This document shows positions 2,265 through 63,970 of a stretch of DNA of 64,000 bases, in pieces. The stretch's first letter is position 1; each line of letters opens with the position of its first letter. Under the pieces are notes generated by a model. The model was not told the DNA's origin and did no database searches. It was given only the letters and a program-made list of their open reading frames with translations. Source of the stretch: Haliclystus octoradiatus (taxonomy: Eukaryota; Cnidaria; Staurozoa; Stauromedusae; Haliclystidae); contig OU744451.1 of the NCBI GenBank assembly GCA_916610825.1, positions 22,084,349-22,148,348 on the forward strand, in the 5' to 3' direction. Position numbers and translations under genes: made by a program.

Positions 2265-5200
2265 ATGATGCTAAATATGATATATATTATATTGATATTT
2301 GCAACGTATGGGATTACTAATGTGGAACTTTCAGTGTGTGATATACGCTATGAATATCGATTACTACCAACTCATCGTTGCTCTGTTGAAACATGTCAGC
2401 AACCTTTACATATTGGTTATCTGGATTATCCACCTTATGTATATTATAAGGAAAATCAAACAAAACCTGTTGGACTGTTAGTAGGTAAGATAAAATACAT
2501 TACATGTCAATGTATGTGGTGATATGATTTATAACGGACAGTTGTTGTGATTTATGGTGCACACAGGAAAATAATACTTTAAAAAAGCAAAAAAATGGCA
2601 AAAAATTTGCTGTTTAAGCATTAACTTGAGCTGAAGCCTCTGCTTTCTTCGACATTTGTTTAGATATGATATGAATAGCTGTGCTGCTGAATGAACTTGT
2701 TAGACGTCATTGAGATTTTTATTCCACAAACGATTGTAAATAAAGTATAACGTTCCTGTTGGTTTGGAAATGAATTCTATATTTTTAGAATTTTATCTCG
2801 CAGTGCATATCGAGATTTTTCACAGGTTCATAATGATACCCTCCAGAATTATTTAAAGAAAAAGATTTCTATAGCTGGTGGTGTATTTTAAAAAGGTCAT
2901 GACCCTGCAATGTATTGCTATGCAATACCAACAGGACCAATGTGAAAAAGCTCTATAGTTTCTTTAATTTCTTGACAAAATTAAGACGCTGTTGCATATT
3001 TCAGTATAAATTATATCAATTTAAAATGAAAATTTCTATCGGAAAATATTTTCGCAATAAATTGACCCTATACTATTGTTTTTGTCTGAAGTGACACTTT
3101 TTGTAAACTCTGCTGGTCTCACTCTATATTTTAACCTGTCCATGTTTACGCATGCATATTAATCACATACTCAAAAGTCTGTCTTTTTGACCTGATATAT
3201 CACATTTTCATCAAAAGATATTTTGAGTATTATTGAAAATGAATGGTTTTCACTTTAATTCTTATGTCAAAACTGTCTTTTTGGGATACATAAATTTACT
3301 GACCATAGCTCTGTCAATTTCTTCTATAGTAATTATCGAACAAAAGAAATATTCTCACATGTCTCATTTGTTAAAATGTGAAGAAGAAGAAAAACGGATT
3401 ATCTAAACTGCTATCTAAAATCTAACATTCAGGATAACATTGATCTTACTATTAATTTGATAGCTATATAGTGTTCAGTGGTTAGTTTCTACATTAAGTT
3501 AATTTTATGATATTCTTAATTTTACAATAATTAATTTGGTCGTCGCATTATTCCTTATATTAATCAGTCTGTTCAATATGCTATTGTTTTAACTTTCCCA
3601 TCAATGATATCTTGGAAGATTAGAAATGGCATATGGTTAAAAAGAGATAATTTATTTTTTGAAACTCTTGAGACGAAACCTTTAGCTGCACTATATCTTG
3701 ATGATTAACATAGCCGTTACATCTATTACGCAGAAGGCGCACCTCTTAACTGATCTTTACGGGTTTTGCAAGGATCTATAGCACCAATCATTTCATCACA
3801 GTGAAATGAAAATAAAGTATTATGAAAAACTACCTACGAGAACTAATCACAGGTCTTCTGTTAAAGTTTTCTAGCTCATATTGAAACTCAAAATTTATAA
3901 TTTTTATTTGCAATTATTTTCAGAATTAATTTTTGATCTGAGCCCGTCTATAATTGAAGATCTGCGATACAATAAGAAATAATGGTACTGCAGAATATTT
4001 CAGTTTAAGATTTATATAATATAAAACTGAACTAAGAAACTGGAAGATATTTGTAATGCATATACAAAGGAATCAGATTCAAAATTTATTTTAAAAATCG
4101 GTATATAAGTTGAATTTATACGCTTCTACAGATATATGATAGAATTTTAGAATTTGGATATTTCCTGGAAGCAGATTTTAATTGTTCAAGATAGCAAACA
4201 AATCAGAAATTAAAAAAATGGTTTTATTGGTTTAGCATTTAAGTGATAAGATTTTTATTATGCTTCAAGTAACATAAATACATTCATGCCATGTTTATTT
4301 TGAGCTTACCATTCCTATTATAGTAACTTTCCAAAATGTCGGTTGCTTTTTCTTTACATGATGTAACTGTATGAACTTCTTTGTCCGAAATTATCCATTA
4401 AAACTAATTAGATCTGTTGTCATTCAGAAATATATATCTTGTCAAAATTAATTCGACGTGTTGATGACAATTTTGGAGTACAAGACAATTTTACAAATTT
4501 TTATGACTAATCAGCAAGAGAGTTCCTCTTTACTCTCCACATTCAAATGAGTTTTTGAAATCTTCAGGTTTTTAAAACTGCCAATGAGCCTAGTACTGCA
4601 ACTACCATACACCGCACATCCGTAATAAATGTCTTGTAGAGCGATAATGTTGAAACGCAATAGACGACATTTGAAGACGAGGATATTACTTTCAATTTTT
4701 TGCGCATGGATAGCTTTGTTGCATTTAGAGATGGACGAATCAATATGTTTTTAAAAGTTAATTATTTTTCAATTGAAATTCCTTGATATTTAAAACTATA
4801 AAATTTCTTCATTGATTTTTCGTTGACTTTTATTGTTAATTGTGTTGTCTCTCCTACGTATAGGTTTGGTTGGTTTCCAATAAGCATGCATTGCGTTTTA
4901 ATCAAAATTTTATGAAAGTGTTGTTATAGCATTTCGTTATTCGTTAATAGAAGTGAATTCATGTTGCAGCTTGTTTTATTATACTGTAGGGTGAGCTCGC
5001 TATAACATAAAGTAAGGTATAGGTGTCATACATATTGACTGTAAAATGATTTGTGACAGTTGAGACGCATAAATGAAGACTTATTGTGCAAATCATCTCA
5101 GAGTTGTCTAAGGCATCATAAAAAAATCATTGAAGTCGGGAACACTGAATATGGTGCAAAGTTATTTTCTGAACCCTGATTGAAAGTGATTATAAACAGA

Positions 5201-8200
5201 TTGGATATATTTAAAACATGATAAATGTCATCAAACACACGGCCTGTTCAACGATTTTTGAAATGACTGCAAATATGGGCAATAATTAATACTTTCATGT
5301 TACTTACTAACCTTTAACGTTTTGATTTATGTAAGGCAATCATTTTGGTAACTTTGAGCCTATTTGAAAACTTTTCTGACAGAAGAGACATTTCAAAATG
5401 TCACCTAGGCCAGGTGCAATTTCTAAGGCATCGGATTTTCAACAATTATTTTTTATGTTGTCTCTCCAGGTGACGTTTATGATGTCCGTCTGGTATAAAG
5501 TATGAAAATTCAAGGTTTCATTATTTCGGATGTTCAAGAAATCAAGAAAGTTTTCTTGTGCATAAATAAGAATTAATTATTCGAAGAACTAAATATAACT
5601 TCTAGCAATGATTGTAAATATTTCTAATTATAGGAAAACGTTTTCTTTGTTAAATAAGAAAAAAATTCCAGTCTAGTGTTTCGAATTAACTGTACTTGTG
5701 TAATAATTTGTAATTATTCTTTGTTTATTTGTGTGTTTCAACAGGCATGCTAGAAGAGGGTTTAGCACTCTGTTGCCAAGGGTGTGAAACCAAAGTTACA
5801 TATACACGAGTAACTGATATGAGCCAAATGATTAATCATAATTTTTCAATTTACATGCCAAACTCGATGCCTGAAGAATTGATATATAATTCCAAGTTAT
5901 TGCTCAATTATCCATTTGTTGGTTTTATTAAGCATTTGAAAGTGGTTTATGCTTCCATTGCAACTGAATCACAAGCCCAAAGACAATTTTCCTTTATATC
6001 GAAGCGAATTAGAAATTTATGGCCTCTTTTTGGAATTGTTGGCCTGACAACACTGATGGCTGGCATTTTGATTTGGTTAACCGTAAGTTATCAGATCTCC
6101 ATACCTGTATAGTATATATTAATCGGACACGAAGAGAACTCCTGCTTACTCATGCTATGCTAGCCTCCGAAGAAAATCAAAAAATGTTTTCGAGCAAAGC
6201 AATATAGATTTCGCAAATCGAATACTCTGATTGCGTTATGACAGCACCGCGGGTCAAAAACAAGGAAACAATCAAATAACAGATCATCCATCTAGTCATC
6301 AGTTTTAGCCAAAGGTTTTGTAAATCGTACCATCAGAGCAGGGGATATATTCAAACAAAATTATTATAAATGTTTTATTTCTATTTGTTGAAACAGAAAA
6401 AAGATCTTTTCCATCGCATTCTGTTGTGCATCCCGTCACAAAAAAAAACAAGGAGTTTTCCCAATTTGATTATAACAGCAACGATTTCGCTATTTACGTT
6501 TCGCAATGATGCTTCGTTGGAGTTTGTTAGAAATATATCAAATTTTGTTAGTTTCCTCGCAGTCATTAGACTTCAAGTCAGATCTTGAGGTTGCTTTTTT
6601 TTCCGTTGGTATCTGGATTAAAAGCACTTACTGAACCATATCGACGTTTTACTACTGGTATATTTTAGACGTGCATTTAACCTATTATATCGGAAATCGA
6701 AACAGAATAATTAGTCTTTAAATCGTTGACATAGTATGCTACATGACGAATGGACATATAATTAGAATTTTTAACTTGGATGAGGTTTAAATATATCATT
6801 CAAATGTATTCAGTAAAATATTTGTATAGAAGTCTCAATTCATTATAGAAGTTAGAGTAAAATTAAGTCTTCGCAAAACAACCAAGCAGCCCTAGTAAAC
6901 AATCGCTAATTTTTATAGTCTATTCTAAATTAGATTTCCAATTGTATTTTGCCATTTATAGGTATGAGCTTGCTGAATCATAATGAATTGTACTATGATC
7001 TATAGATACATTATTTGTGAATAATTTTTTCAGGATACATGGTTTAACATCACAGAATTCCCACGTCGTTTCATGTACGGGTTTGGTGAAGGTTGTTGGT
7101 GGGCATTTATTTCAATGACAACGGTTGGGTAAGAAGAATAACTAACCTAACTGTTACAAATTGTAATAGTTCTCGGAGAAGACGTTACTGAATAATAAGA
7201 TGTTTCGTATATCAGGTTATACTGCTCAAAAAAATTGCTCAGGTGGTTGCTATTCTTTTAAACATTTTAACTAAATTTTTTGATGATCTTTGGTAAGGTA
7301 GCTTTGATATTGATAAATTATCTAAACCAATGTTTTACAAAGATAGGTCGCATTGGCCAAAGGAACATTTGCTTTTTCAATATAAGTAGGATTGAATAAT
7401 TTCATTATTATCGACACTCTGAGGGTTGATGATTATTTAATCAATGCCCCAATAGTTAATCAACCTACGTTATTGTCGAACAACTAGACGAAAGATTGTA
7501 TTTCCCTAATGTTGTTGAAAATATAAAATAATTTGACCATACCATCAGCTCTTCGCCAAAAACTTCAAGAACAATAGAATATTAACATGTTGGTTGACAT
7601 TTTCGAAGGTCCTAAAAATCCACTCGTGGCTTAATAAACAGAAGTAAGTACTCCCGTATTATAGCAATCCTGATATTTGTATTGTTTTCTCATTTAAAGG
7701 TATGGTGATCGTACACCACGATCTTTTCCAGCCCGGTTGTTTGCTGTCTTCTGGATTGCATTCGGAATAACATGCTCAAGTATTATGACAGCATCTTTAT
7801 CATCTATTATAACAACTGTTGCTACGCATGAGAATACAAAAATGGGAGGAAAAACAGTAAGTTTGTTGCTGTCAAATTAACCATAGCAAAATCTCATTGC
7901 ATCACTAATTAAAAGTGTTGCAGAAATATATGCTGTATATATGTTGGCTTCTACTTGCAGATATGTACTTTTTTGGATAATTCGTTGGAAGTCGGAGTAG
8001 TGTATCAAAATGGAGGGGAAATTCTAGGTAAAAATGAATTTGATCTTATTCAAATGTGCGAGAGGCACAAGGAATATATAAGGAAATAAGCATCGTTTGC
8101 AATCTATAGTTTAAAAAATCTAACATCATATAAATATGTTTACAATCTTACCTTCGCAAAATGATCCTCTGAATCATTACAAAATTTCACGTCATGCATA

Positions 8201-11200
8201 TCAAACTCTAGACTTTGTCTTATTCAAAGACCAACAATATCTAATGAACGCATTTAAACTATACTGCTGTGTGGAATAGTTGTTTCTATAAATAATTGTA
8301 TCAGACTTATATCTGTTTTGTTCTAAGGCAAATCAATAGGGAAACAATGACTTTTTATCATCTATAACATGTTAAGACACATTCCGTGGAAGTTTAATGA
8401 GTTTTTGTATTTATAAATTATCTCGAAATAAATAAATTAATTAATAAATTATAAATAAATAAATTATCTCGAAGTTGAAACAGTTTCTATTGACATGAAG
8501 AATTTTTTTAAGGGTGGTACTAAGAAGAGGATTTGCATGAGGTATATTGGCGAATTGACACCTTTGAGTGAATTCAATATTGACTATTGTTCTCTACTGT
8601 TCTAATGTGGTGCACGTTTATATGAGGTAGCCAGACTGGTGCTCCTGGGTGGTATCTCAATTGATCTCAGGCAAACTAAATCGATAACCGACTGGGTATT
8701 ATTTCTTCCTATTTTCAGTATATCTGCCCTTTCAGTTAATGTGTAATTTTACTTTGATTCGGTTGTCAATATGAGCATAATACTCGTTGGAATTGTTCAC
8801 AAACTTGAAATGTATTAACATGAATTCAAAAGCAGCTTCTGATTCGTTAGTTTGATTGAAAAATTTTCAAATTTTGAAATGAATTTGATAAGAATTTGGA
8901 ATAGATGATCAAGTTTCTATACAAATAACATTCGATCGCGTTGTCTCCCGAGATAGAAAAACTGATACAAAGCATCATCATCATGTCTTGACAGCTCCCT
9001 AATTAAGTGGTTCAACGCCGGATAGACCTCCTTGCGAAGGAAGGCAGTGCTTTCAAATTTGATAATCTAAAGATCAGTACAAAATATATTCAAAGTATGC
9101 AACAAGGAAGTAACATTATAGCTTATTGCTTGTATTTAATTCAAACTAGTAGATAAGCAGATGATTATTTACCATAAACAATTAAACATCCATGGCACAC
9201 AAATTTGAATTAGAAATTTGTTATGTGTCTCAATAGCAAACACACGACAATTGAAAGATTATACCGAGAATATGTTTTTAAACTATTTTGAAGTAATCTA
9301 TTGTCTACTTTTTTCCAGGATATGGTAACATTGAGAAGATAGCAAGTGCTCTACATAACAAAGAATGCTCAGGTAGTTTTTATTATTAAAGTACATATTG
9401 TTAAACGAGATTTTCGAATGCTTTTCTAGAGATTAGAGTAGCTAACTCCCCCGTGTTTGGATCACACAAGCCAAACAACTTGGACATCATATGAACCAAA
9501 AACACCCGAAAATTTCCAAATAATTGTTATTAAAAGTTTGAATTAAGTTATCAATGTTGATGATATAAAAATTTCAGAATACTATTATGCAAGGCATACT
9601 TATTCTTACAGTCATTTTGTTTGGGTACAGTGGTTATTCTATGACAACAAAAAACCCCTACAAAACGCGAAAGCTTGAAAAACAGCATAAATTTGAAATT
9701 AGACACATCAAGACCATATAGAGTTCGAACAATCGGAAATGATCTTGTGTCATCGAAATTATGACTTTGGGCTTCTGATTGGAAGAAAGGCAATTTATGA
9801 CGGTGCCGTGAAGATTTATAGGAGAAAAGCGATGTTAAAATCGTTACAAAACAGTAAAAGTCTGTCTCCTTTCAAAAAAGGGGCTACTGCAAGAAAGCCT
9901 TGTGCTTGGGTTCTATGCTAGAAACATTTTGGATGTTTGGAGACTTGAAAATAAAAAATAATGCTAATAATCGACGAACAAGTCCTTCATTTTCCGATGG
10001 TTTCTCATGTTATCCAACATCGCGCGTGTTGGTATGAAATGTCATAAATGTTTTTGAAATACAGTGCAATTATTATTCCACCATTAATGGAACTATGTTT
10101 GAATAAGTCTATTGTTACTAATTTCATAGGTGTTGCCATGGAAAGTCAGATGCTTCTATACTATTGGGACACACTCAGAAATACCAGTAACTTGGAGATT
10201 ATTGATATCATTGATGCACCTGACCGTTCAATTGGCATTGTATTCTTTGGATATGATCGAAACCAAACAAACTCCTGGGCAGAGTATCTCACTAGCTTTT
10301 ACAACTTTAATCGTGATCACAAAGACACATTACTTGCAAATGGAAGAAAAAATATCAAGCCTGCTGTAAGAATAATGCAATGCAATATTTTTAAATACCT
10401 CTATATAGATGGATTGACTAGTAGCCATTTCTTCTAAAATTGTTACTTTGGTTCTTTGATTTCTCAATTGCCACAGACTTGTAACTCAAAACTACAACAA
10501 TTATGTAGACCTTCCAAAATATGGGGAACATCTTTGTTTGTAGTTCTTCAGGAGTGGAAAATTATACAATAATATATATCTTGCTGTTATTTTGAAATTC
10601 CCGAAGGATGTTTGCAAATTCTTGCAAGAAATTCAAATTGAAAACCAGGCGAATTATCGAATTCCGATATATAATTTATTATGCAGATGCCTTTCATACG
10701 ATATGAATGTGTTTTACGCTAGTTTTCGTATTATCGGCAGTTTATTAATGTGTCGATTTTTCTGAGGTGGTCTTCCAATTACAGAATAACGATACAGAAT
10801 TACCCATCGTTAATAAGCTATAATAACCCATAAGCTATCAGATATCAGAGGATATTGCACTTCTCGATACTTAAGGTAAGTATGATAAGAACTTAAGATC
10901 TTGCCAAATGATTTTCTATTTCGCCAACATTCGTGGAATTAAATATTTTCATCAGCATCTTCGGAATAGTCAGATTGATTTTCTATTTCGCCAGCATTAA
11001 TAGGATTTGCTTGAATTCATTTTCCTCAACAGTGGTTGATGTTTCGAGGGCTGATGACTAGTCAATCAAGCATGCCAATCCTGACTCAAGATACATCAAC
11101 GTTGAACAATCAGAGGAAGGCTCATATTTCTCAAAACAAGCCATTTTGCAACTTTTCTTCGAAAACAGTAGAATTCAACCAATTCTTAGCAATAGTGTCA

Positions 11201-12261
11201 ACATTTTTCAAAGTCTTCAAAATACCAAAAAGAAAATTTCAATATCAGCAAAAAATATCCTGAAAATGAGGATGGCAAAATTGAAAGTCCCTTGGTACGA
11301 GGCTTTATGCTAGAATCCAGCATTTGTACTTTCTCACACACTTGATATATATTTGCTTCAATTATGTATATAATCTTTGCTTGTATATTTGCCAGTGGCG
11401 ATATACTACACATGTAAGACTATGGTCGATGTGAGGGAGATATAAACGACACAGTAATTGATTCAAGTAAATATCTTTTCACTGGTCTCTCGACGAACTC
11501 TAAACGAGAGTCTAGCACACGACTTCAAACTCTGTTTTTATACAATAATAATCACCACTGACCTGCGATCCCGCAGTCAGCTGGCAGACTTTACAAGTTT
11601 ACATTACATCATAAATTACATCACGGCTATGATCACAGGAAGGGACAACACGCAATATATCTAAACATAAATTACACAATACAGTTAAAATGCAAAATTA
11701 TTATTTTCGATTCAAATTCCTTTTTACTGGCCCTAAGTAAACATTTTGTCCAGCTATTTAGCTCAAATTAATTGAAAATAATCAGATTAGGCTTAATAAT
11801 TAATTCATCACCCAAAGCCCCTATAATTGTATTGGGGATTTGTCAGCTAATCATATCGAGCAACAATGTTATTGGAATGGTAAGGCTCATTGTAGTGAGC
11901 AATATTAAAATGACAATTGATTACACTTTGTCATATTAATTGTTATAGTTAACAAGCTAATTTATTAGAAGTCTGATTTATTATGATATGTAAATGAAAT
12001 GTTTGTCTTATTGTATAGCTGCAATTCAATTTGCTTAACCAAGATGAATCAAACTCGGGAATATTTGATAAACCATCTGGCCATTTTGCAGACATTATTA
12101 TTTATATGCTATATATGTTAATTGGTCTTGTTGCTTTTGGTTTCATTGTTGATGCTATCCTACGACTGAAGGAACATGTGAAAGATGCAAATGAGAAGAA
12201 ACTTGTCACAGAAAGTGCATCTGATGCAATGAAATCATCACAATTTAACGGTAAACAGTAA
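2265..12261 (+). CDS. Gene A: iGluR-like receptor channel with K+ selectivity filter, intact
   Basis: Eight exons: 2265-2484, 5745-6082, 7034-7128, 7700-7856, 7961-8027, 9319-9372, 10130-10365 and 12019-12261. All junctions are GT-AG and the joined frame is open for 469 aa. Residues 1-22 form a signal peptide. Cysteines at 25, 39, 44, 83, 84 and 87 follow. Residues 48-61 (LHIGYLDYPPYVYY) resemble the first S1 strand of glutamate receptors. TM1 is 165-186. The pore loop ends in TVGYGD (216-221), the potassium-channel signature, and the next helix (230-258) contains TASLSS, like the iGluR SYTANLAAF gate. S2 spans about 271-389 with VAMES at 312-316, matching the iGluR LLEST site, so Glu315 may contact ligand. 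A last TM lies at 414-436. There is no amino-terminal domain and no voltage sensor. A ligand-gated K+ channel of the plasma membrane is the likely role. The ligand is unknown, because S1 has MPEE (115-118) where the usual arginine would be. Confidence 0.85.
4560..4915 (-). mobile_element. Degenerate LINE reverse-transcriptase remnant in gene A intron 1
   Basis: Translated on the - strand, the stretch reads as the post-catalytic part of a LINE RT: a K-x-Q-C-M-L-I-G-N segment, then a YQGIS (KYLGI-like) segment, then a thumb-like LYKTFI stretch, with stops and frame breaks. It is a dead fragment. A further, older RT scrap at about 5320-5480 is shared with gene C intron 1. Confidence 0.5.
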
Positions 12262-12517: not shown

Positions 12518-12985
12518 CTACTCTCCCATAGCCCCGTTGAAGCATCTCCTTCGGTTGTCATGCAGCGGTTGAGGGGCATACGTCGTTGATCTTTCGATGT
12601 GACCTAAAAAAGACATCTGACGTTGGTGAGCAATAGCAGAGGCAGAAGGGGAAAGTTTTCTAAGTTTAGCAGTAGACAGTAAGTTGGGCCAATGTACTCC
12701 TAAAGCATGCCGAAGTATGGCGTCATAAGCTGAGTCAAGTCGGGTCAATAGTGAGGTTGATAGAACAGACGTTTCAGATGCATATAATAGAACAGGTTCT
12801 ATCGTGTGTCTGAACAGTCTTAACTTAACGTCAGTGCTGACACCGGACGCCCAGAATTTATTCAGACCTCTAATTGCTGCCCAATCCTGGCCTCTACGTT
12901 ATGTTAAATCATCTGTAGAAGATGGAAGTACAGAACCTTGGTACTTGAGCGAATCTACACGTTCTATGTCACCATTTGAATCACG
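12518..12985 (-). pseudogene. LINE reverse-transcriptase C-terminal fragment (degenerate)
   Basis: On the - strand the conceptual product runs from a VDSLKYQGSVLPSS segment (the KYLGS motif after the RT palm) through VKLRLFRHTIEPVLLYASET to LDSAYDAILRHALGVHW and a QMSFLGHIER motif. This order is typical of the thumb and C-terminal region of RTE/Nimb-like LINEs that animal annotations often call endonuclease-reverse transcriptase. At least one in-frame TAA breaks it, and no endonuclease or catalytic palm is present. It sits 250 bp downstream of gene A. Confidence 0.7.
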
Positions 12986-13480: not shown

Positions 13481-13502
13481 GCTCTAGCTTGATGAATAAA
13501 TG

Positions 13503-13886
13503 TAATGTAGAAGGTGTCGCCCTACCGAAGGCACCCGTACCATTCCTCTATTTCTAGATGAGTGGCTTTTTTCGTTGAGAGCAATGATTTGAAACGCTTT
13601 TTGTTGATCTCAGCCGCCGCGACACTGCAGATCAATTTCAACAGATTTCGTGGCAAACAGGGCTCGATTGTCAATGCACAACGATGCACCGCAGCTACTC
13701 ACAATGCAATTCCCTCTGGACCATTCCATCCGCCATTCTCAGATGGTACTCATTTGATGTTTCAGATAAAATCAAGGCTGAGTTGACCTTCGGGGGATTC
13801 GAACCCCCGGGTTCGAACCACAGTCGATCAGATATGATCCGATCTGAAGTTCAGTTGCTCTGCCATCTGAGCTAATCCGCCCTCGT
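13503..13886 (-). mobile_element. tRNA-derived SINE, copy 1
   Basis: On the - strand the element starts with a tRNA-like head. It has an A box TAGCTCAGATGG and a perfect B box GGTTCGAATCC, the internal RNA polymerase III promoter, followed by about 280 bp of unrelated body. A second copy of the whole unit lies at 21755-22098. A small internal duplication of GGTTCGAA lies next to the B box. This is a SINE rather than a tRNA gene: the stems do not close properly and the tRNA head is fused to the repeated body. Confidence 0.8.
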
Positions 13887-18788: not shown

Positions 18789-19869
18789 ATGCTTAATATG
18801 ATTTATGTTATATTGATATTTGCAACGTATCATATTAATAATGTGGAACTTGCAATGTGTGATATACGCTATGAATATCAACGATCAGCACCTACGCGTT
18901 GTTCTGTTGAAACTTGTCAGCATCCATTACATATTGGTTACCGCAATTATCCACCTTATGTATATTATAAGAAAAATCAAACAAAGCCGGTGGGACTGTT
19001 AGTAGGTAAGATAAAATATATTACATTCCAATTCACATTCTAATATTGTGATATATTTTTGAATTATTTCAGCACGCAGGAAAGTAATACTTTTGAAAAG
19101 CAAACGTTTTCAAGAAAATTTCACAATGGCAGAAGTCATGTTTAAGCATTGATTTGAGATGAAGCAACTGCTTTCCCCGACAGTAAAAGATGTTTAGACA
19201 TATTTTGATTAGCAGTGCTGCTGTATAAACTTCTACTGCAAAAACACATCTCAGTAAGAGGTCATTAAGATTCTATTGCACAAACGTTTGTAAATATAGT
19301 AAAACATGTTCGTGCTTGCTTTCGTGAAGAATTCTTTGTTATTACGTTTAATACTTGTTGCTTATGGTCACCTTAAAGTATATAAATTATACCGATTCAT
19401 GTTGAAAGTGTTTTACGAAAAATTATTTCACAGTAAATTTTCTTCTGCTTTTGTTTTTGTCTGCTGTGATGTTTTTTGCAGACACCGCAGGTCTTCCTAT
19501 AATTTAACCTGCAGATGTTTACATATGCACATCAATAACATCCTCAAAAGTCGTCTGTTTGAAATTATTCACCACATTTTCACAAAAAAGTAATTATTTT
19601 TAGATATTATTGAAAATGAGGGGCTTCACTATTTGTTTACATTGTCGTGTTTGAATGCAAATATTGAGGACAAATAATTCTTACAAGATATTCTTTATTG
19701 TAATGACTAACACGAATGAAATTTCTCAACATCTAGGTTATCAAGATGTCTTATATAAGATTAGAAATTTGTATAGAACTTATAGAACTGTACGAATATA
19801 TATAGAAATATTTTAAGGATGTGTCAGTGAGGGTTTCAGTACTCTCCTTTTGTTTAGCGGTCTTTTTGA

Positions 19870-20400: not shown

Positions 20401-21754
20401 CTTGTAACATCCTATGATCAGATTCTCGACAATGTTGTCTATTCTAGTTGAAATTTTATCTTGTAGCGACAAAATGAGATTAATGAAGTCTACTTGTTTT
20501 TACAGTATGGAAAGTAGAGGCTTGATTGCTACGGTTGCTTGAAAATATCAAACTTCCCGTGTGCAAGAAAGAATAAATTATTCGACAAACTATCTTCTAG
20601 AATGAACCATTCTAATTATGAGAAAGTGTTTTCGTAGTTGAACAAGAAAAAGTTTATTTATTGTAATGTAGCGTTTTGAATAGTCTGTATTAGTGTGGTA
20701 ATTATTGACAAATATTCTTTTTTATTTTTGTGTTTCAACAGGTATGCTAGAAACGGGCTTAGAAATCTGTTGTAGAGGATGTGAAACTCAAATTACATAT
20801 ACACGAGTAACTGATCAAAGACAAATGGTTAATAACAATTTTTCAATTTACATGCCCACCTCCATGCCTGAAGAATTGATATATAATTCAAAGTTATTGC
20901 CAAGCTATCCATTCATTGGTTTTATAAAACGTTTGACTGTGGTTTATGCTTCCATTGCAACTGAATCGCAAGCCCAAAGACAGCTTTCCTTTATCTCAAA
21001 GCGAATTGGAAATTTATGGCCTCTTTTGGGGATTGTTGGCATGACAACACTGATGGCTGGCATTTTGATTTGGTTAACCGTAAGTTATTTGTTAACAGTA
21101 AATTCTGGGTACTACATATTAATCGGACATGAAGATGACTTTTGCATTTTCATGACATAGCCCCCAAGAAAAGTCAAAGTGTTTTTAAGAAAATTCTAAG
21201 ATTTTATAAGTCGATGGTGATCAAAAACAGTGAATAAGTTGTGAATCCTTGAAAATAATTTTCTATAAAGAGCCCATTGATGAATTACATAATAGAAATA
21301 TTTCAAGAAGCATAATTTATCGATCAAATCATCATTTTAAATCAATCTTTTTGGCAATCGCTCCATCAGAACTGGTGAAATTTAAATTCAGTTATGGTAC
21401 GTTAAGAGTGGAAATATCCTCTTAGTATTCCTGACCAAATCGAAGCCAAAAGGAGGGCAATAAAGCGAATTGCTAATATGTCATTTATCTTCTGCAGCGC
21501 TGCTTAGTTGGAATATGTCGAATCTATATCAAATGTTGTAACCTTCTGTCGCAGTCATCCAAATTTAACTCTGTTGTTGGGGTCGCCTTGTGTTCGGCCT
21601 ATGTCAGGATTTAAAATTTAGCGGAATCAATCGACGCTTTACTATTGATATATTTTAGAAATGTATTCTACTGAACCGGGAAAGAAAATTGAATTTATAG
21701 CCTTTTAAATATGTATGGAAGTTTTGACGTTAGATTAAATATGAATTTCTTATG

Positions 21755-22098: not shown

Positions 22099-25000
22099 AT
22101 ATGAATTTCTTTACACATGTCTCCAATGAAATTTGTCAGACCCTTTGTTATAAAATTTACAACTGTCATGTGGATAGAATTCTGAATTCACTATAGAAGT
22201 TCAAGTGAAATGAGTTGGAATTGATTTTTTTTTAATCTTCATAAATCACTCAAGCAGCGCTTGTAGCTCATCACTAGTTTTCGATACGGTTCAAATTGAA
22301 TCGCAATATGTTTTTCACTTTTAGGATATGGTTCGATGAATCATAGTAAATAGTAATCTGATCTATATATGCATTATATGTAAATTGCTTATTTAGGATA
22401 CATGGTTTAACATAACAGAATTCCTAAGGTCGTTTCATGTATGGGTCTGGAGAAGGTTGTTGGTGGGCATTTATTTCAATGACAACGGTTGGGTAAGAAA
22501 CATAATGAAACAAGGTACTAGTAATTGTAATAATTCTGCAGGAAGAGTTTACTGGAATATCGAGACATTTCATAAATCTGGCTACTTTGCAGGACGTATT
22601 TGCAACAGTGGTTGCTACCATAGAAGTTTCGAACGTTTCAATTACATTTTGTATTTTCCATGTCAATGAAATTGTTTTTCCTTTATTCTACACAACTTGA
22701 CCGTAGGTATTGTCGGAGTTTCAGAATCGCTAACGAAACCTCTCGAAGAGGACGATGAACTTGCTCGTGCGCGATTCTAATGCGATCCCTGACAGAGTTA
22801 GAACTATGCATGAGAGATAGCAGATTTTTATTTACCTTATTATGGAATTGGAAAAAGGGTAAAGCTGAATTTGGAAGCAGAGAAAGTGGATTGGGTGCTT
22901 GCACGATGAAGACCTTTCGTGGTCTTTGGTAATCTAACTTTATCATTGATAAATTAACTAAAACAACATTTCACAACAATATATTGGAGTGGCGTATAGA
23001 ACTTTCTGCTAAAATTGGTAGGATTTAGTGATTTCATTATTTCCAACATGGGTGATATTTCGAGAGTTAATCAATATTTAAATGAGGCTCGAATCCTGGG
23101 TCGACATACTAGATTGTCGAACAGTTAGTTAAAGGCTCGTATTTTCCCAAGGTTGTTGAAAATATGTAATAACTTGGCTAGACCGCTAGCTCTTCGTTTT
23201 GTGGATAGCATTTATGAGCGTACTGAAAAACCCTCTTTGGCTCCATGAGCAGAAGTAAGTGCTTGCTTATTTCTAGCAATCATTAAATGTATCTCATTGT
23301 TATCTCATTTAAAGGTATGGTGATCGTACACCACGATCTTTTCCAGCCCGGTTGTTTGCTGTTTTCTGGATTGCATTCGGAATAACATGCTCAAGTATTA
23401 TGACAGCATCTTTATCATCTATTATAACAACTGTTGCGACGAATGAGAACACAAAAATGGGAGGAAAAACAGTAAGTTTGTTGCTGTCAATTTAACCATC
23501 ACATAGTCTCATTTTATTATTATAAATTAATAGAATTGCTATTTTCTGTATATTGTATTCCATTTGCAGATATGCACTTACCTGGATAATTCGTTAGAAG
23601 TCGGAGTAGTGTATCAAAATGGAGGGGAAATTCTAGGTAATGAATAATTATAATTTGATCTTATTGAAATGTGCGAGAGGCAAATCGAATGCAACGTAAT
23701 AATAAACCATGAATGATGAAACAAGTGTCTTTTGCCTTCTATGGTGACTTATAAATAATCTGACATCATATAGATATGCGTACATTATTTCGTTTCCAAC
23801 TTGATCCTCTGAGTTATTAAGAAACATCACGTAATGAGTATTCCTCCGTTGATCACGCGTCTCATTCAAATACCTGAAACAACTAATTAACGCATTTAAC
23901 AGTTCCCACCAAACTGGGTATGGAATATTCGCTTCAACTGACAAACTATAAATCATAAATTTATCAGATTCATATATATTTGGTTGTAAGCCTAATAAAT
24001 AGGAAAATAATGCCTTTATGACAACTATAATCATGTTAATACATATTCCGTAGGATGGAAGATGTTTTGAGTTTTTAGAAACATCATCTAGAAAGAGAAA
24101 TTGAAAAGGTTTCCATTGATATGAAGACTTGCTTACTTTGGTATGGTACAAAGAGGGTGTTTATTTGAGGTCTGCTGCAGAGGTGACCACTTCGAGTAAA
24201 TTCAACCGGCCCCAGTCGGATGGAATCTCACTTGATCCCAGGCTCACAAAATCGATAACCTTGACTTGGTATTAATTCTCCCTATTTGCACTAGATCTGC
24301 AATTTCTCATCGTGCCAATCTCGGGGCCAATCTTTACGTTAATTTCGTTGAACATTTGATAATAGCAAATGGAGTAATTATGAGGTTGGAAAAGGAGATG
24401 AAATTCCTATATAAAAAAACATTCCGTCGAATTGTCTCCGGGGCATTCACGACTTAAACAATTCAAAATCATCATGTCTTGACATCATCCTAACTAAGTG
24501 TTTCCACGTTGGATACATCTTTCGAAGGCAGGTATTGCTTTCAAATTCTTTTGCTAAAAAGAAGTATATAAAACAATTATTTATAGCATGCATCCATTGA
24601 ACAAACAGTAGTCACTTTTTAGCTTACAGGTTATATTTAATTTCAGGTATTAGATAAGCAGATAGTTATTTAACATGTGAATTAAATATCTATACAACGA
24701 AAATTTGAACTAAAATTTTTTATATTGTATCAATTGAAAACCTATGACATTTGAAAGGATTAACGAAAGAATAAATAATTCAAACAATTTGCCTCTTTTT
24801 CCAAGGATATGGTAGAATTCAAAAGATAACAGATGCTTTGCATAACAATGAATGTTCAGGTAAATTAATGTATTAATCATCACATCAGACCTGCATGTGT
24901 AGTATACCACAGATTGAAAAATTGAATAACTTATTAATGCAAATAATTAGCAATAACGACGTGCTGTGCTGGGTATATTTGGGTTGTACAATTTTGGAAA

Positions 25001-25780: not shown

Positions 25781-26501
25781 AGGTGTTGCCATGGAAAGTC
25801 ATATGCTTTTATACTATTGGGACACACTCAAAAATACTAGTAACTTGGAGATTATTGATATCATTGATGCACCTGACCGTTCAATTGGCATTGTTTTCTT
25901 TGGATATGAAAGAAACCAAACAAATTCATGGGCAGAGTATCTCACTAGCTTTTACAACATGAATCGTGATCATAAAGACACATTACTTGCAAATGGAAGA
26001 AAAAATATCAAGCCTGCTGTAAGAATGAAAGAAGGCAATTTTGTTTATGTAGCTCTATTTAAGGATTTCTTCCAAAAGTTATTTTGATTCTTGGATTTCT
26101 CAATTACCAGAGGTTGTAACTCGAAATTACCACAGATATGTAAACGTGCAACAATATAGGGACCATCTTTTTTTGTAATTCCTTAGAGATAATAAGATAA
26201 TAACTATCTCATTGGTCCTTTGAAATTCTACAACATATTTGCAATATCTTGCAAGAAATTGAAATGATATCAGGCAAATAACCAAACCGCGAGATAACAT
26301 TGACGTCTATAGATATGATGTTTTACGCTGGCTTTCGTATTACCGGCAATTCATTATGGGGCCGATTTTGATGAAGTGGTCTTCACAACAGGGAATTTCG
26401 ATAAAGACTTTCCCATCGTTTTTATGCAACCTTGATAAGCTTTCAGCTATTTTCACTTTGTTGCTGGTATATTTGTTAACATTTGAATAATAAAGCGGCT
26501 T

Positions 26502-26546
26502 GTCTGACACGTGTTTCGTCCCTGCCAAGGGACTCATCAGAGACCT
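26502..26546 (-). ncRNA. Type I hammerhead ribozyme, copy 1
   Basis: The - strand reads GGTCT, then the core CTGATGA, stem II GTCCCT-TGGC-AGGGAC, then GAAA, a short stem III (AC/GU around ACGU), then GTC and AGAC closing stem I. All conserved core bases are present. Cleavage is predicted after the C of GTC, between 26506 and 26505. The very short stem III with the palindrome ACACGTGT is like dimeric hammerheads of newt satellite and Penelope-like elements. Confidence 0.8.
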
Positions 26547-26732: not shown

Positions 26733-27977
26733 TTCTGATGTCGTAGCTCGTCAGGCATCGCGCATGAAGTCCCGCTAACGAAATGTAGAGATGGTGTTTC
26801 GTCCCTGCCTTTCAATAATGTGTGGTTTTTTTAATGATATCGGGGAATAAAACCTTCATGGTACTTATCATAAGTATGATAAGGTTTTGAGACCTGGCCA
26901 AATTATTTATTATCTCGTCAATATCTTCGAAAGGCTCAAATTCCCATTGTACTTCGCCAACATTAGTAAGTTTTTGTCGAATATATTTTCATCAGCTGCG
27001 GCTGATATTTAGAGGCTGGTGACTAGTCAATGAAGCCTGGCAATCCTGAATCAGGATTGAGTGTGAATCAATCAGAACTGGGCTCAGATTTCCACAAATC
27101 AAACCGATGTTGCTGAAAATAGAAAGTCATTTGACAGCTATTCTTTGACAGCAGTGTAATTCAACATCAGTCAAAAAGATCAAAAAAATGAGGATTGCAA
27201 AATAAATGTCCTTTGGACAGGGGCTTTAGGCTAGAAAACCTTTGGATATGGGCTTTAGGCTAGAAAACCTGCGTTTGTACTTTCTGGTACACTTAATATA
27301 TTTGCTCTCATTTTCGGTTTATATTATTTGCTTGTATATATTTAACAGCGGCAACGTAGTGTTCAGGAAAATTGAAAAGAATATTTGATTCGACTTAAAG
27401 TCATCTTTTTAGTTTGTTTTCAAGAAAATCTTTGAATGTCCAGCTATTTCAGTTTTTATCCTGAGGGGCTCTAATCCATTGGAATTGCACATTAAATATC
27501 CGATTTGACTTCAAACAAGCATTTTATCAAATTCAGCATGACTGTAATGAGATGTTCGCCTGCTAATCATATCTATAGCAACAATTTGATTGGAGTGACT
27601 AGTTTTAATGTAAGGACTAATATCAAAATGACAATTATTGACAGATTACTGACAATTGATTGTGTTATATCAATTGTTAGTTAATATTTATAGTCTGTAA
27701 TAGATTATGATAACTAATTGCATTGTTTGTCTTATTGTAGCTGCAATTTAATTTGCTTAACCAAGATGAATCAAACTCGGGAATATTCGATAAACCATCT
27801 GGCTATCTCACAGACATCATTATTTCAATGCTGTACATGTTAATTGGCCTTATTGCATTTGGTTTTATTGTTGATGTTGTTATACGACTAAAGGAACATC
27901 TGAGAGATGCAAATGAAAAGAAAGCTGTCGTAGAAAAAGTGAATCTGAAGCAATTAAATCATACAACTCCAATGTAG

Positions 27978-28440
27978 TAGCAAAATAGCTGACAGAGATA
28001 AATAGAAACACATTTAAATTTAAATATAAGTTATAGCTGATGATGAGATTATTTAAATTTATCCCCCGAATGGACGCTTGATTATTCTAACTTCCAATAC
28101 ACCTCTGTATATAGATACCCTTTTGTCTTGTTTTTTATAACTAATTTACAACAATTTATCTCTAGCAACTCGTTAGGCGAAAACTGTAAATAATTTGAAA
28201 ATTGAACTATAAATTCTAAAGACTTATCACAGTATCTTAAATATATTTAAGTAGTTTACAATCCTGTATCTATAAGCTACTATTCATTTGTAATTATGTA
28301 CTTTGTAATCGTAAAATTTAATGCCATCTTAGTATGTTAACCAACTGCTTTACGGAGTTATGATACATGCATTCAATTTAACGGTAAACAGTAATTAGAC
28401 AGTGATTGTCATATGTTGATAGAGAAATTCTCATTTCATT
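27978..28440 (+). other. Gene B 3' region with about 400 bp of inserted sequence
   Basis: After the gene B stop, about 400 bp have no counterpart in A or C. Then the block CAATTTAACGGTAAACAGTAA, which encodes the last residues of A and C, reappears at about 28377-28397 with its usual downstream sequence. The insertion split the original last exon and gave B a new C-terminus. No gene or known repeat is seen inside. Confidence 0.55.
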
Positions 28441-36571: not shown

Positions 36572-47028
<10,457 letters not shown>

Positions 47029-52737: not shown

Positions 52738-55700
52738 ATGGAGTCGTATTATTTTATAGCATTTTGCTTTATTAAATGCTTTTATATTGATGGCATATCT
52801 TGTGCTTCTGAACAGTGCTTAATTCGTTATGAATATCGTCATATTTATCATGGGTACGTTGATCAATGCAATATGAAAACGTGTTCTAAGGCTTTGACAG
52901 TTTCTTATGTAGATTATGCTCCATATATTTTCAATGTTGAAGGACAGAAACAACCTGAAGGATTATTTGTCAGTAAGTAGAATATATTGCTATTTCAACT
53001 TTGGTTAAATACTACAGTCGAACTTGCTTAATATCCCCCGTTGGTACAGATGAAAAGTGGGACATTAAGCGAGGCGGGATATTGAGAGAGGTAGGATTAT
53101 GAGAGTTTGTAGGGAGAATGGAAAATAGAAATCAGTTTTATGTGGGGATATTAAAAGAGGCGATAATAGCCGAGTTCGACTGTACCAAGAAAATAGTAGC
53201 TTTTGGAAATTTGAATTTTTAATAGGCTGATACATGGATATGTATAAATTTATAGAATGAGAGTCAAAAACGGAACATCCTAGATATCTGCTACATCAAG
53301 TTTTACACTAGACTAGAAGGTGATCATCAGGCTAATATATTTCAAAATGCTCTGATTGATCTCATTGAACACTATACCAACAATCAATGGTGTGGAACAA
53401 TTCCACTAATAATATTATTCATATTATTATTATTATTATGATGTTTGAATTTATTCAGGATAGGATATGCTTAAATTTGTGCATTCTTTGGTATATTATT
53501 TACATGCTTGCTGACATGTAAGCAATTAGTTCCTATATACATACTACTTCATCGTTTACAAACTATAATAATTATATCGTACATACTAATAGCTTGATAA
53601 ATTGATTATATTCAATAAAAACTTGTATACACTTTCACTTGTATATGGGGACTTAATGATTGCGAAAATAGAGTAGAATTTATAAAGCAAAGATGAGACA
53701 ACGACAGTCTCTGTGTTAGTAGGTTGTCTTAGTTTGCTTTTGAAGATCGTTGTTGATTGCTTGAACCAAACGTTAACAAGCAATTTTTCCCCATCATTCC
53801 TCTACCCTCGAATATCTATTCTTCGTATTTTTTTTTAAAAATAAAATTATATGTATTTAATTATCAAAAATTACATAAAAAGTTAAATAGAATTATAATT
53901 TAAGTTTAAAAATTCCAAAAAAATGGAACTGTATAGTATATTATAATGAAAAACGTGGATCTTCTTTTATATATATATATACACCTGCCTTTGTGAAGGT
54001 TTACTTGACAAAATATTCGTGATGGAATATAATGCGATAAAAAAACTACAGCATGGATTTAATCTAAAATTATTTTCAGGCGAGAGAGCTCAAAACAGTT
54101 ACATGAATATATATAATAATAAATTAAAGAAAATTAATTATACTGAGTGTAAACTCAGATACACATATACTGTGAAAGTGCTCTCAAGTTGGTTAAAACA
54201 GAGCATTAAATAATAAGAGACAAAGATGAGGCAAAGGTGAGGCATGAACATTTATATAAAAATCGAATTTATTTGTCTCGTTGCATTTATCGGAATTTAT
54301 TGATGTTGTTTTTTATCGCATTTTTTTATTTTTTAGTGTGTTTTTGTTTGTTTTTCATTGAGTTTTTTAATATTTTTTTATCGCATATCACAATCATGAA
54401 ACATATATACATCTTTATTTATATAATGATGATTTGCTTGATATATTGTACTCAATAATGAACAATTTTATTTTGATGCAGGTGTCCTCAACAAAGCATT
54501 AAGTATATGTTGTCCAAATTGTTCAAGTACAATAGAATGGATATATTTAAATAAATATGATGAAGTAACAAATTCAACCAAGATGACAACGATCTTTATA
54601 CCAGCTGCAATGCCTGAAGAATCACTTCAAGATACATTACAATCCGTTATGCCATTTGTAGGGTTGATAAGAAAACCAAAAATTGTATTTGCTGAAAAGA
54701 ATAGTGACGAGAAGACTTTAAATCAATTAAAAACAGTTATGATTGGTGTCTTACGACTTTGGCCAATGCTTTTGCTTGCGATTTTGACAACTTTGATTGC
54801 TGGAGGTACAATTTGGTTAATGGTGAGGCGATATGATAAATATGATAAGATTATGTAGAAGAGGCTTAATGATGTTGAGTTGCTATGAGTTTTATAGTAA
54901 CCATATTCGTGGGTCATTGATAAAACTAAGCAATTATAGGAAACAAGGACAAGGCAAAAGCCTTTTCCTTGCATCGGCGCTTCACACGTTTAATCCTCAT
55001 ATCCAAGCTGTACCATGTGATGATCGCCAAAGTAAACGCATAAAGCTCCGAGTTAGGGAAAAGGTTTTTGCTTCATTTTTATTTCCTACCCTATATATCA
55101 ACCATTTCTTTACCAATATTGAGCACATGTGTCTATCCGGCAATTGTATCAATGCAAGTTTATTTCAAAATTATTAAATTATTGATCTATTGATATAGAA
55201 CTAAGCATATTATACATAATACTTTTGAGGCAACATTATCTATTGTGTAAGTTGATTACGTTAGGGTCCGTTTCGTCGTTGATTTTCATTTCATGTACGA
55301 CTTCATCTGCGCCTCTTCAATTAAGTTTTAAATTTTGTAGTTTAAAGGGATAGTTTCTGATAAATACATACTGCAATAATATAATAGGTACATTTTACTG
55401 CTTGCAGATAATTAATTGTAATACAGTATAAGAAAGATATAGAGGCCATGATTGTAAAATCCCGATCATTCAAGTTCTAATGAATATGGAAATTAATGGC
55501 AACGTTTGCATTCTATTAATTAACAAGCATGTATAGCCACCATAGCCAGCGTTCATAGAAGTCATGTTTAAGACAAAACACAACGCATTGACCTATCACT
55601 TTCATTTTACTACTGTACTTTCAATATTCAATGGTCGTTGTCATTGTTCAGAAAAGTCATTGTTTGATGCCTAAATAATTGGATGTTGATAAGAAATTTC

Positions 55701-61700: not shown

Positions 61701-63970
61701 AAATACATAAAATCTTTCATTATGAGAATGAATTTTCTTCCCTACTTTTCCCAAGTCATCGGCCACTCTATTGATAAATTTGTTTTTCTGCTATTGAATG
61801 AGAAGATGTATGCTAATGTGTTCAATTGTTTGCTTAAATTCAGACTCCCGTTTATTCAAAAGGTAATATAGACTCCAATTATTGAGCTGTAATCTACAAT
61901 CAACCATTATGAGAGAGGGCACTATACAAAGAGGTGCAAATGCCAATATAGAGATCTCGTAGGCTTATAAACCCTATAACTTAATGTGTGAATACAATTT
62001 TATTTGATAAGTATTTGTGACTGATCCTCAGAGAAGACTGTGCTCCTGTGGATTTATTAGGACTTATTTGGCCTGCTATTTTCTTTGTTTGTCAAGGTGA
62101 TATGAAACTGTTTTGATATTAATATTTACAGGATACATGGTTTAATCGAGATGATTTCCCACGCTCATTTTTACACGGTGCAGGTGAAGGCTCGTGGTGG
62201 GCGTTCGTATCAATGACAACAGTCGGGTTTGTACAATTTTGAATTTCCAGTAATAGGGCAAAAGGAATTTATACAGCTATACAATATCAGCACACAACAG
62301 AGGGCGGTGGACTTATGTCTGTTGTGTTTTCTGCGTATTAGACTCTTGACAACTATGTATACAAATAGAAATACGTTAAGGCGGCTATAAAAGGCATCTG
62401 GACATGACAAAATTAAATATTGTATATAGAGAGTGAAAAGCGTAATCATTTATGAGAATGAAAAAAATTAAAATTCCTCTTGCAAATTTTGATGAATAAG
62501 ATATACTTCGATTTAACTTCATTATGCTATAATTAGTTATTTCTTTATAAATGGTTGTAGATTTGTTTATTCTCTCTCTTACTGCCTGAAGATGATTCTA
62601 AAATAAATCGAAACTGTAGCAAAATGTTCTGTCTTGTTCTTATCGCTGATCAAACATAATAAAGATTATTTCCTATTGCTCAAAGCATCCCATATAGAAT
62701 TTTTGGAGAAAGATGATCAACCCTGAGTAGATCCTTGTTTAAATTGCTCAATCTCGGTTGCTTTTGATAAAATGTCTTTATATACATCAACATGTAAATT
62801 TTTAACGACTGCAGAACCACCAATATTTTTAATATAGGGTAGAGAACCATGCTTACTAAGAACCTTGCGGCAATGTATAGTTTTCTTGGCAGTTTGTCAC
62901 ATGACACAAAAAATTTACGTATATATTTACAAATCAAGATTTCAACATATCGTACATATGATGGTGAAGAGAAAAGAGCATTTATATCCAGCTTGAAAGA
63001 GAACAACTGCAAGTCAGCTATAATCATTTGATGTTTACCTTTGATATAATAGGTTCACTGCAAAAATAACCATCTTATAGTTGTCAATTCCTTTCTAAAT
63101 CAATTAAATCACAAAGTAACAATCATTATAATAATCAACTCCTTCCATGAAACATTTATTTTCTCCGGGTTTTATCTTTCCTTGCACGACAAGTGGTATC
63201 TCATGATTGGACATGTCAATTTTCTCATACCTGAAAAACATCCTATGCCGTATATGATTGGAGGTATCATTTTCATTGTGAGTGAGAAATTGAGATGTGT
63301 CACTGATTGACCAAGAAAAGAAAAGAAAAAAGGCCTTGCTGGATAAATGTAGATCTGGATATATTTCAGATCACTCACTAAATCATAAATTTATGAAATC
63401 ATTCCAATAATTAAATAGTTTTTGAATTGTGGAATGCCCTATCAAAATTTACTGTTGTTTTTCACTTAATTTTTAGATACGGCGATAAAACACCGAAATC
63501 ACTGCATGCTAGAGTATTCGCTGTCGTTTGGATTCTATTTGGAATTGCCTTATGCAGTGTTCTTACAGCTAGCCTATCCACTGCTTTGACAACCGTTGCT
63601 TTACAGGATACACCTACAATCAGAGGCAAAAATGTAATGCAATTGATCGATTATTATTATTTTTATTTTATCTTCAAAAAAATTTTTTCTAGCTTTAAAT
63701 AAATATTTATTTGATATATCCCTTTTTATTATACAAAATTAATCAATAAACGTGAAAGGTACTAAAATTATATTTACATTGATATTTTATTACATTTAAA
63801 AAAAAAAGACAATCCATGAAATTTAATTACAACTTTAGAAAAAACTAACCATCTATCTATATAACTATAGTGGCTAATTTACATTTGTACAGGTCAACTG
63901 TTCTTGGGAAGTCCCCAAGACACACAAGGGCATTGGTCCTCTGTATGACAATGCTGATATTCTCCCGGAT
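52738..63970 (+). CDS. Gene D: diverged iGluR-like receptor with K+ filter, 3' part beyond window
   Basis: Exons: 52738-52972, 54482-54822, 62132-62226, 63477-63633, and a tentative fifth at 63893-63970; the rest lies off the right edge. Phases of the first four equal those of A-C, and exon 2 is one codon longer. ATG 52738 is chosen because it opens the hydrophobic signal segment (YYFIAFCFIKCFYI); the frame upstream has no other ATG. The YEYR, DYAPYIF, CCPNC and MPEE (in AAMPEES) motifs are kept. TM1 ends at 192. The pore reads GEGSWWAFVSMTTVGYGDKTPKS with the filter at 222-227, and the next helix has TASLST. Identity to A-C is low outside the pore, so D is an older paralogue. Intron 2 (7.3 kb) holds an antisense LINE, a microsatellite and a hammerhead repeat. 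Confidence 0.8.
53015..53182. mobile_element. 168-bp pogo/Tc1-like MITE in gene D intron 1
   Basis: Ends are CAGTCGAACTTGCTTAATATC and, inverted, CAGTCGAACTCGGCTATTATC. They form terminal repeats flanked on both sides by TA (53013-53014 and 53183-53184), the target of Tc1/mariner/pogo transposases. The interior repeats GGGATATTRAG-type words. No transposase is present. A damaged second copy lies at 51275-51469. Confidence 0.8.
56342..59131 (-). CDS. LINE ORF2: endonuclease and reverse transcriptase
   Basis: 929 aa from the first ATG. Endonuclease/exonuclease/phosphatase-like motifs come first: ITETWL (Glu23), [22 protein letters not shown] and TCDHQSIEF. The reverse transcriptase follows: [60 protein letters not shown] and LFADDAKFF with the catalytic FADD at 654-657, then a thumb and C-terminal segment. 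It nicks target DNA and copies its own RNA there. The frame extends upstream of this ATG as FYYFNARSL, which holds the Asn motif expected at the start of the nuclease, back to a TAA at 59195-59197. The true protein therefore likely begins upstream of the first ATG. No internal stop. Confidence 0.9.
   Translation of the reverse strand: [929 protein letters not shown]
59305..60048 (-). CDS. LINE ORF1: PHD-finger protein
   Basis: 247 aa. Residues 7-61 have Cys7, Cys10, Cys25, Cys28, His33, Cys36, Cys58 and Cys61, a C4HC3 PHD-type zinc finger as in CR1-clade ORF1 proteins. A likely coiled-coil stretch (about 65-85) and a domain of about 120 residues (MAGVPF, FVCGSNVQITGITRVGKPP) follow, probably for RNA binding. 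The frame ends at 59305 soon after an A10 run (59338-59347 on the + strand). A one-base slip back at that run opens the other frame for about 47 more codons (APGERYVIKRRGDV) to the TAA at 59195-59197, which looks like the natural end of ORF1. Confidence 0.85.
   Translation of the reverse strand: MTGGKACVICKKKNIAGNSLDALPCVHCDKWWHKACSITHKDCTALEIEVLQKYPTSCSLCYDSLKNLPVRLDSLEKKFEDFTESFKTQTSSSSTGVAKSYSEVASQDGANVDLNKVIKEAVAISNNKRQLIMAGVPFISQEFDKQKVNQIVSFVCGSNVQITGITRVGKPPTEKGATNKPQLIKIQLVSQNDRDVILRSAGKLKDSENFPGVHIRQCLTFNERKILQPLYDDLKKKFQTLPLVSVM
60410..60714. repeat. (AGAAT)n microsatellite
   Basis: About 60 near-perfect pentamers over 305 bp, in gene D intron 2. On the - strand it reads as a repeating LFYSI peptide in all frames, which is not a gene. 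Confidence 0.95.
60841..61040 (-). mobile_element. Hammerhead-ribozyme repeat (retrozyme-like), gene D intron 2
   Basis: One unit of about 182 bp plus the first 16 bp of a second (TAAAGCGGCT at 60843 and 61025). It matches the tandem at 26489-26812 through the CGTCAGGCATCGC, ACAACCTCGGTGCATATC and GATTGATTAATCAATTG segments. Substitutions and a 6-bp deletion mark it as a separate insertion. Confidence 0.75.
60852..60897 (-). ncRNA. Type I hammerhead ribozyme, copy 3
   Basis: The - strand reads GGTCT-CTGATGA, stem II GTTCCT-TGGC-AGGAAC, GAAA, the ACACGTGT stem III palindrome, GTC, then AGGTC, which pairs with GGTCT using two wobbles. The full core is intact. Stem II differs from copy 1 by a paired C-to-T and G-to-A change. 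Cleavage is predicted between 60858 and 60857. Confidence 0.8.
61041..62131. other. End of gene D intron 2
   Basis: AT-rich intron with no further recognisable element. A good pyrimidine-rich acceptor (AATATTTACAG) precedes exon 3. Confidence 0.4.

Follow-up and report, generated by a model that had tools for sequence, protein, structure and literature searches.

A tandem cluster of putative ligand-gated channels with a K+-channel filter on a glutamate-receptor-like plan

Results

Four tandem genes in one window

A 64-kb stretch of DNA (hereafter the window) contains four tandem paralogues that probably encode subunits of ligand-gated channels bearing a K+ filter, on the plan of bacterial GluR0 and rotifer AvGluR1. 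This reading is carried by a K+ filter split identically across two exons in every copy, by a P-loop and M3 alignable with GluA2, and by a second ligand-domain part (S2) alignable with lobe 2 of binding-protein/iGluR ligand domains. As an earlier note on this DNA had proposed, the paralogues are adjacent, and all four could be modelled on the + strand: gene A at 2265-12261, gene B at 18789-27988, gene C at 36572-47028, and gene D from 52738 to the window end. Exon models were obtained by comparison across the copies with GT..AG borders required, and such borders are found at every modelled exon border inside the four genes. The exons are given below; all come from the splice models except the last, and evidence beyond the splice model is added in brackets.

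2265..2484, +, gene A exon 1: hydrophobic N-terminus (signal peptide-like) and first part of S1 (conserved in A, B, C, and D)
5745..6082, +, gene A exon 2: remaining S1, pre-M1, and predicted M1 (copy comparison, hydropathy)
7034..7128, +, gene A exon 3: pore helix and TTVG filter half
7700..7856, +, gene A exon 4: YGD filter half and M3 with TASLSS (GluA2 alignment)
7961..8027, +, gene A exon 5: start of S2
9319..9372, +, gene A exon 6: S2
10130..10365, +, gene A exon 7: S2 with the AMES acid motif (ligand-domain alignment)
12019..12261, +, gene A exon 8: end of S2, predicted M4, basic tail, and stop (hydropathy)
18789..19005, +, gene B exon 1
20742..21079, +, gene B exon 2
22397..22492, +, gene B exon 3: out of frame (96 bases against 95)
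23315..23471, +, gene B exon 4
23570..23636, +, gene B exon 5
24806..24859, +, gene B exon 6
25783..26018, +, gene B exon 7
27741..27988, +, gene B exon 8: end approximate
36572..36788, +, gene C exon 1
38956..39293, +, gene C exon 2
42210..42304, +, gene C exon 3: TTVG filter half
43241..43397, +, gene C exon 4: YGD filter half and M3 with TASLSS
43502..43568, +, gene C exon 5
44492..44545, +, gene C exon 6
45761..45996, +, gene C exon 7
46786..47028, +, gene C exon 8: predicted M4, tail, and stop (hydropathy)
52738..52972, +, gene D exon 1
54482..54822, +, gene D exon 2
62132..62226, +, gene D exon 3: TTVG filter half
63477..63633, +, gene D exon 4: YGD filter half and M3 with TASLST
63893..63970, +, gene D exon 5: tentative, from our own reading of the translation and bases; the remainder of D lies past the window

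Genes A and C each comprise eight exons with stop-free translations of 469 and 468 amino acids, respectively, and the two proteins are 89% identical; D is 41% identical to A over its visible part. Exons 1–4 of D are clear and the reading is open throughout the part seen, which is incomplete within the window; exon 5, implied by the end coordinate of the earlier note, is tentative because its 78-base length breaks the phase of A and C. At 96 bases, the pore exon of B is one base longer than its counterparts in A, C, and D (95 each), which throws B out of frame from this exon onward; the last exon of B likewise has another length (248 bases against 243). Since exons 4–7 of B are stop-free when read in the frame of A, recent loss and sequence error are both possible, and the frame break may mark a pseudogene or an error in the sequence.

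The K+ filter is complete only after splicing. In all four copies, both halves are present and TTVG/YGD is interrupted at the same place by a phase-2 intron within the glycine codon. Spliced A, C, and D read TTVGYGD between M1 and M3, in agreement with the exact TVGYGD filter first reported for the cluster, but in B the two halves are out of frame with one another. Across the window, the split-filter pattern was found as five donor/acceptor pairs on the + strand and none on the – strand, against an average of 0.0 over 200 base shuffles; a chance filter motif was ruled out by this count and by the four colinear copies. The gate-like motif reads TASLSS in A, B, and C, as originally described, but TASLST in D.

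Membrane layout and pore relationships

In hydropathy profiles of A and C, the N-terminus is hydrophobic, a single segment flanks the pore on either side, and a further, strong segment lies close to the C-terminus. The best reading of this pattern is a plan of hydrophobic N-terminus, S1, M1, P-loop, M3, S2, and M4, in which M1 and M4 are predicted from hydropathy. The gene models have neither room nor sequence for an amino-terminal domain, in line with what had been claimed. The putative M4 has a mean hydropathy of 2.64 in A and 2.71 in C. The final transmembrane segment of the earlier note corresponds to a hydrophobic segment seen in A, B, and C only, and no match of M4 and tail to the M4 of GluA2 was found. 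By eye, the N-terminus looks like a signal peptide; the linker from filter to M3 is basic, as is the tail that follows M4. Together, these features would make S1 and S2 extracellular and put the pore loop on the inner side, the arrangement of iGluRs. A counterpoint to this inverted orientation is a sequon in the M1–P linker of A and C, which would then be cytoplasmic.

By Pfam, PDB, and NCBIfam comparison, the pore is nearer to ordinary K+ channels than to iGluRs. Pfam Ion_trans_2 was matched at 46.3 (A), 46.2 (C), and 54.4 (D) bits against a cut-off of 22.5. For Pfam Lig_chan, the ligand-gated channel family suggested as a check, D reached 32.6 bits, above the cut-off of 30.8, but A (23.4) and C (21.4) fell below it. 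In a PDB sequence search with the pore, K2P, KCNQ, and KcsA stood on top and NMDA-receptor chains appeared with E-values of 4.2e-5 and 1.2e-4, all within the best 60 of 268 matches, and K+ channel models of NCBIfam were matched only far under their cut-offs. When a profile of A, C, and D was aligned with GluA2, P-loop plus M3 gave a score of 34.2 that none of 200 column shuffles reached (best 22.7), which supports homology of these parts to GluA2. In this alignment, which spans P-loop and M3 only, with M1 lying outside, GYGDRTPRSFPARLF stands against GC-DISPRSLSGRIV and TASLSS against TANLAA.

Relatives were also sought in sequence collections. A scan of genome contigs gave 64 pattern matches and five loci (L001–L005) in which the pore part only was matched, the longest over residues 148-240; at L001, the one locus of the five whose ORFs were read, the ORF that matches encodes a short protein resembling K+ channels. 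None of 20 stretches from viral contigs was a relative. With D as query, no plasmid match was found at 1e-5; with its pore part and E-values up to 10, 256 plasmid records were retrieved, none covering 80%, and the annotated ones among the matches listed were K+ or cyclic-nucleotide channels. The outcome was the same for 36 phage records retrieved with the D pore part. In PHROGs, a K+-pore family was matched at 2e-10.

The ligand-domain parts

Neither SBP_bac_3, which had been put forward as a further family to check, nor Lig_chan-Glu_bd was matched in Pfam by HMMER up to an E-value of 10, with whole proteins or with S1 joined to S2. A PDB sequence search with S1 or S2 of A alone likewise found no chain up to an E-value of 10. 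The ligand domain of AvGluR1 is present in the PDB. Because neither a HMMER ligand-domain family nor a PDB chain had been found, a ligand-domain profile of our own was built from 14 rows, comprising GluR0, three binding proteins, nine plasmid binding proteins, and GluA2.

Against this profile, S2 (A and C together) scored 32.3 with an hhalign probability of 52.5 and was colinear with lobe 2; none of 200 shuffles reached this score (best 21.9), and the reversed sequence scored 11.6. Against the 13 prokaryotic rows alone, S2 scored 31.0, and none of 196 decoys was as high (best 24.7), these decoys being fragments of 138 residues, cut from LINE ORFs in the window and from six-frame stretches of L001–L005 without stops, not all of them real proteins. 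The corresponding pieces of GluA2 itself scored 52.3 (S2) and 87.3 (S1) against the same 13 rows. These comparisons support S2 as a homologue of lobe 2 in the ligand domain of binding proteins and iGluRs. For S1, the alignment with the 14-row profile was in register (residues 9-41 with 2-34) and scored 18.8, a value reached by 2 of 200 shuffles; against the prokaryotic rows it scored 17.8, a value exceeded by at least 6 of the 196 decoys, and the S1 part of D by itself scored 11.8. Homology of S1 to lobe 1 is thus only suggested, and the iGluR-like layout put forward earlier is supported for P-loop/M3 and S2.

An early impression of a shortened ligand domain was dropped, since S1 (110 amino acids) and S2 (138 amino acids) are together close to the 229 amino acids of the GluR0 ligand domain. 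Separately, two PHROGs families without known function gave weak matches, phrog_8883 over S2 (A residues 310-392, E-value 0.0019) and phrog_18335 over S1 (A residues 46-96, E-value 0.018).

These results bear on an alternative that we judge unlikely but that has to be taken seriously, namely that A–D are ordinary K+ channels of two to three transmembrane segments whose extracellular parts have diverged and play no part in clamshell gating, the likeness of S2 being chance or a remnant. Such channels would be expected to have a pore nearest to K+ channels, S1 and S2 parts unmatched in Pfam and PDB sequence searches, and a weak S1 alignment, as found here. They would not, however, readily account for an S2 score above those of all 200 shuffles and all 196 decoys, nor for the matches of DxxPRS and TAxL to GluA2, and a hydrophobic N-terminus and S1 ahead of M1, with a basic linker between P-loop and M3, suit the inverted orientation of iGluRs. 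A putative receptor-type channel gated through S1 and S2 is the reading that we prefer.

Ligand-binding residues

The arginine that holds the ligand carboxylate in iGluRs and binding proteins (TxxR) is present in all 14 references, but no arginine is found among the residues of exon 2 that are invariant across the four copies. The acid that binds the ligand amine is D or E in 14 of 14 references and E in A and C, where it sits in the motif AMES, similar to LLES of GluA2. Which S1 column corresponds to TxxR depends on the alignment mode. In one alignment the invariant MPEE falls at this column, as if the ligand arginine had been swapped directly for glutamate, but this was not reproduced in two other modes and was rejected; because the modes disagree, our claim is restricted to the absence of an invariant arginine. 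With no invariant counterpart of the ligand arginine, the name "glutamate receptor", taken as a claim about the ligand, is unsupported. Since the acid is kept and the arginine has no such counterpart, an amine or another non-standard ligand appears more likely, and from these residues the ligand is most likely something other than a standard alpha-amino acid.

It is nevertheless conceivable, if rather improbable, that the genes encode true amino-acid receptors related to AvGluR1 in which another residue replaces the missing arginine. The retained amine-binding acid would fit such a receptor, as would the uncertain alignment of S1 near the arginine, and the relevant passages of PMC12332018 offer AvGluR1 as a precedent for the plan. 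Against it stand the count of zero invariant arginines in exon 2 of four copies, when all 14 references have one at the TxxR column, and the lack of detectable similarity of S1 and S2 to any PDB chain up to an E-value of 10.

Selection

Between A and C, dN was 0.057 and dS 0.345 by NG86, and 0.051 and 0.440 by YN00, giving dN/dS of about 0.16 and 0.12, respectively. The excess of dS over dN indicates that the protein is constrained and, by these estimates, A and C are under purifying selection. Exon 4 (7700-7856 in A, 23315-23471 in B) is 97.5% identical between A and B, and exon 6 is 79.6% identical; the near-identity of exon 4 may reflect either strong constraint or local gene conversion.

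Repeats in the window

LINE-type retrotransposons are present in the window and, together with the GT..AG introns, mark the DNA as eukaryotic. The second intron of D holds an element at 56342-60063 on the – strand that looks like a full-length LINE: it has an uninterrupted 950-amino acid endonuclease/reverse-transcriptase ORF (RVT_1, Exo_endo_phos) and, upstream of this, a 252-amino acid ORF with a cysteine-rich start and no Pfam match. Further intergenic LINE fragments lie at 33628-35042 (+), 28940-29741 (–), and 12518-12898 (–), with RVT_1 at 33628-34467 and 29334-29741 and none at 12518-12898. Intron 6 of C contains about 1 kb of an ATT-type trinucleotide repeat (44700-45740), ending just ahead of exon 7, and intron 2 of D contains a tandem array with a 10-base unit (60330-60780). 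A dispersed repeat is shared between the second and fourth intergenic/intronic stretches (26490-26796 and 60842-61039, 79–97% identical), with two copies 186 bases apart at the first of these sites. An inverted repeat (13544-13884 and 21754-22056) has arms of 74–114 bases that are 89–94% complementary and about 8 kb apart. No match to tRNAs or Rfam families was found in the window.

Discussion

Proposed mechanism

In the mechanism that we propose, the subunits would sit in a plasma-membrane channel whose extracellular S1 and S2, about as long as the GluR0 ligand domain, would form two lobes and close on a small extracellular ligand. The closed clamshell would pull M3 at the TASLS gate, the counterpart of TANLA in SYTANLAAF, and so open a four-fold pore lined by a re-entrant loop from the cytoplasmic side that bears the full K+ filter TVGYGD; beyond S2, the chain would continue into M4 and end in a short basic tail. 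K+ would leave through the open pore, and the cell would be quieted. Binding of the ligand probably differs from that of glutamate, with the amine-holding acid kept and the alpha-carboxylate arginine lacking an invariant counterpart. The two-lobed fold including S1, the homology of M1 and M4, the tetramer, gating, inhibition, and ligand class are thus predictions of the model, and K+ selectivity is predicted from the motif alone. That such a mechanism is physically workable follows from a chimera that joins the pore of a viral K+ channel to the ligand domain of GluA1, described in the pertinent sections of PMC6385376 and PMC12332018 as a glutamate-gated K+ channel that works also with M4 or the amino-terminal domain removed.

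A receptor-type channel that carries the motif but is not K+-selective, so that opening depolarises the cell, is very unlikely in our estimation. AvGluR1 has the motif yet is Na+-permeable according to the portion of PMC3483616 that concerns it, whereas the corresponding portion of PMC12226733 reports selectivity for K+ over Na+; given this disagreement, the motif alone does not settle selectivity. The K+ selectivity of the GluA1/Kcv chimera, as given in part of PMC6385376, likewise speaks against a non-selective channel. That the genes are decaying, functionless copies, as the frame break in B might suggest, is scarcely credible with A and C intact at a dN/dS of about 0.12–0.16 and D open over its visible part.

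With these alternatives weighed, ligand-gated K+-filter channels remain the preferred reading. A broader proposal, which we advance only tentatively, is that the cluster represents an animal multi-gene family of iGluR-plan K+ channels opened by ligands. Such a family would extend beyond one rotifer channel, would have expanded in tandem, and would have its ligand site rebuilt for a ligand other than an alpha-amino acid, making it a direct inhibitory counterpart of glutamate receptors. A described animal iGluR with a K+ filter other than AvGluR1 was not found among the literature matches listed, and a 2018 survey of metazoan iGluRs (PMC6307864) contains neither "potassium" nor "AvGluR1" in its main text, the part of that source considered here; the cluster may be a separate, undescribed branch. 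If the proposal is true, an animal would possess receptors in which a small molecule rapidly and directly opens a K+ channel, on a plan that is otherwise excitatory; such receptors would act as chemically controlled brakes on the cell, not as accelerators. AvGluR1 would turn from a curiosity into one member of a gene family with an altered ligand site, and the origin of iGluRs as a "K+ channel inserted into a binding protein" would become testable in an animal.

Comparison with known systems

The closest bacterial parallels are GluR0 of Synechocystis and the Group 1 channels, which have the same S1-M1-P-M3-S2 plan, a TVGYG filter, and no amino-terminal domain. The ligand domain of GluR0, the part compared here, is of similar length, and S2 of the window aligns with the GluR0-led profile. 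Bacterial Group 1 members are characterized as putative glutamate-sensitive K+ channels in the section of PMC2950845 that treats them. Genes A–D differ in being eukaryotic and intron-rich, in having an extra putative M4 and tail, and in not conserving the ligand arginine.

AvGluR1 of the rotifer Adineta vaga, compared through published descriptions, likewise joins the iGluR plan to a K+ filter and, as had been anticipated, serves as the animal precedent, on the accounts given in parts of PMC12332018, PMC12226733, and PMC3483616. The literature considered here singles it out as the only animal receptor carrying such a filter. It is amino-acid-gated, as stated in the passages of PMC12226733 on its activation, whereas S1 of A–D has no conserved arginine.

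With animal iGluRs such as GluA2, the proteins share a P-loop and M3 with DxxPRS, a TAxL gate, S1 and S2 parts flanking the pore, and a final hydrophobic segment. They differ from GluA2 in having a K+ filter in place of the Q/R/N region, no amino-terminal domain, and a compact ligand domain that has no TxxR. K2P, KCNQ, and KcsA are alike in pore helix and filter, but would have the opposite membrane orientation and are without S1 and S2 parts.
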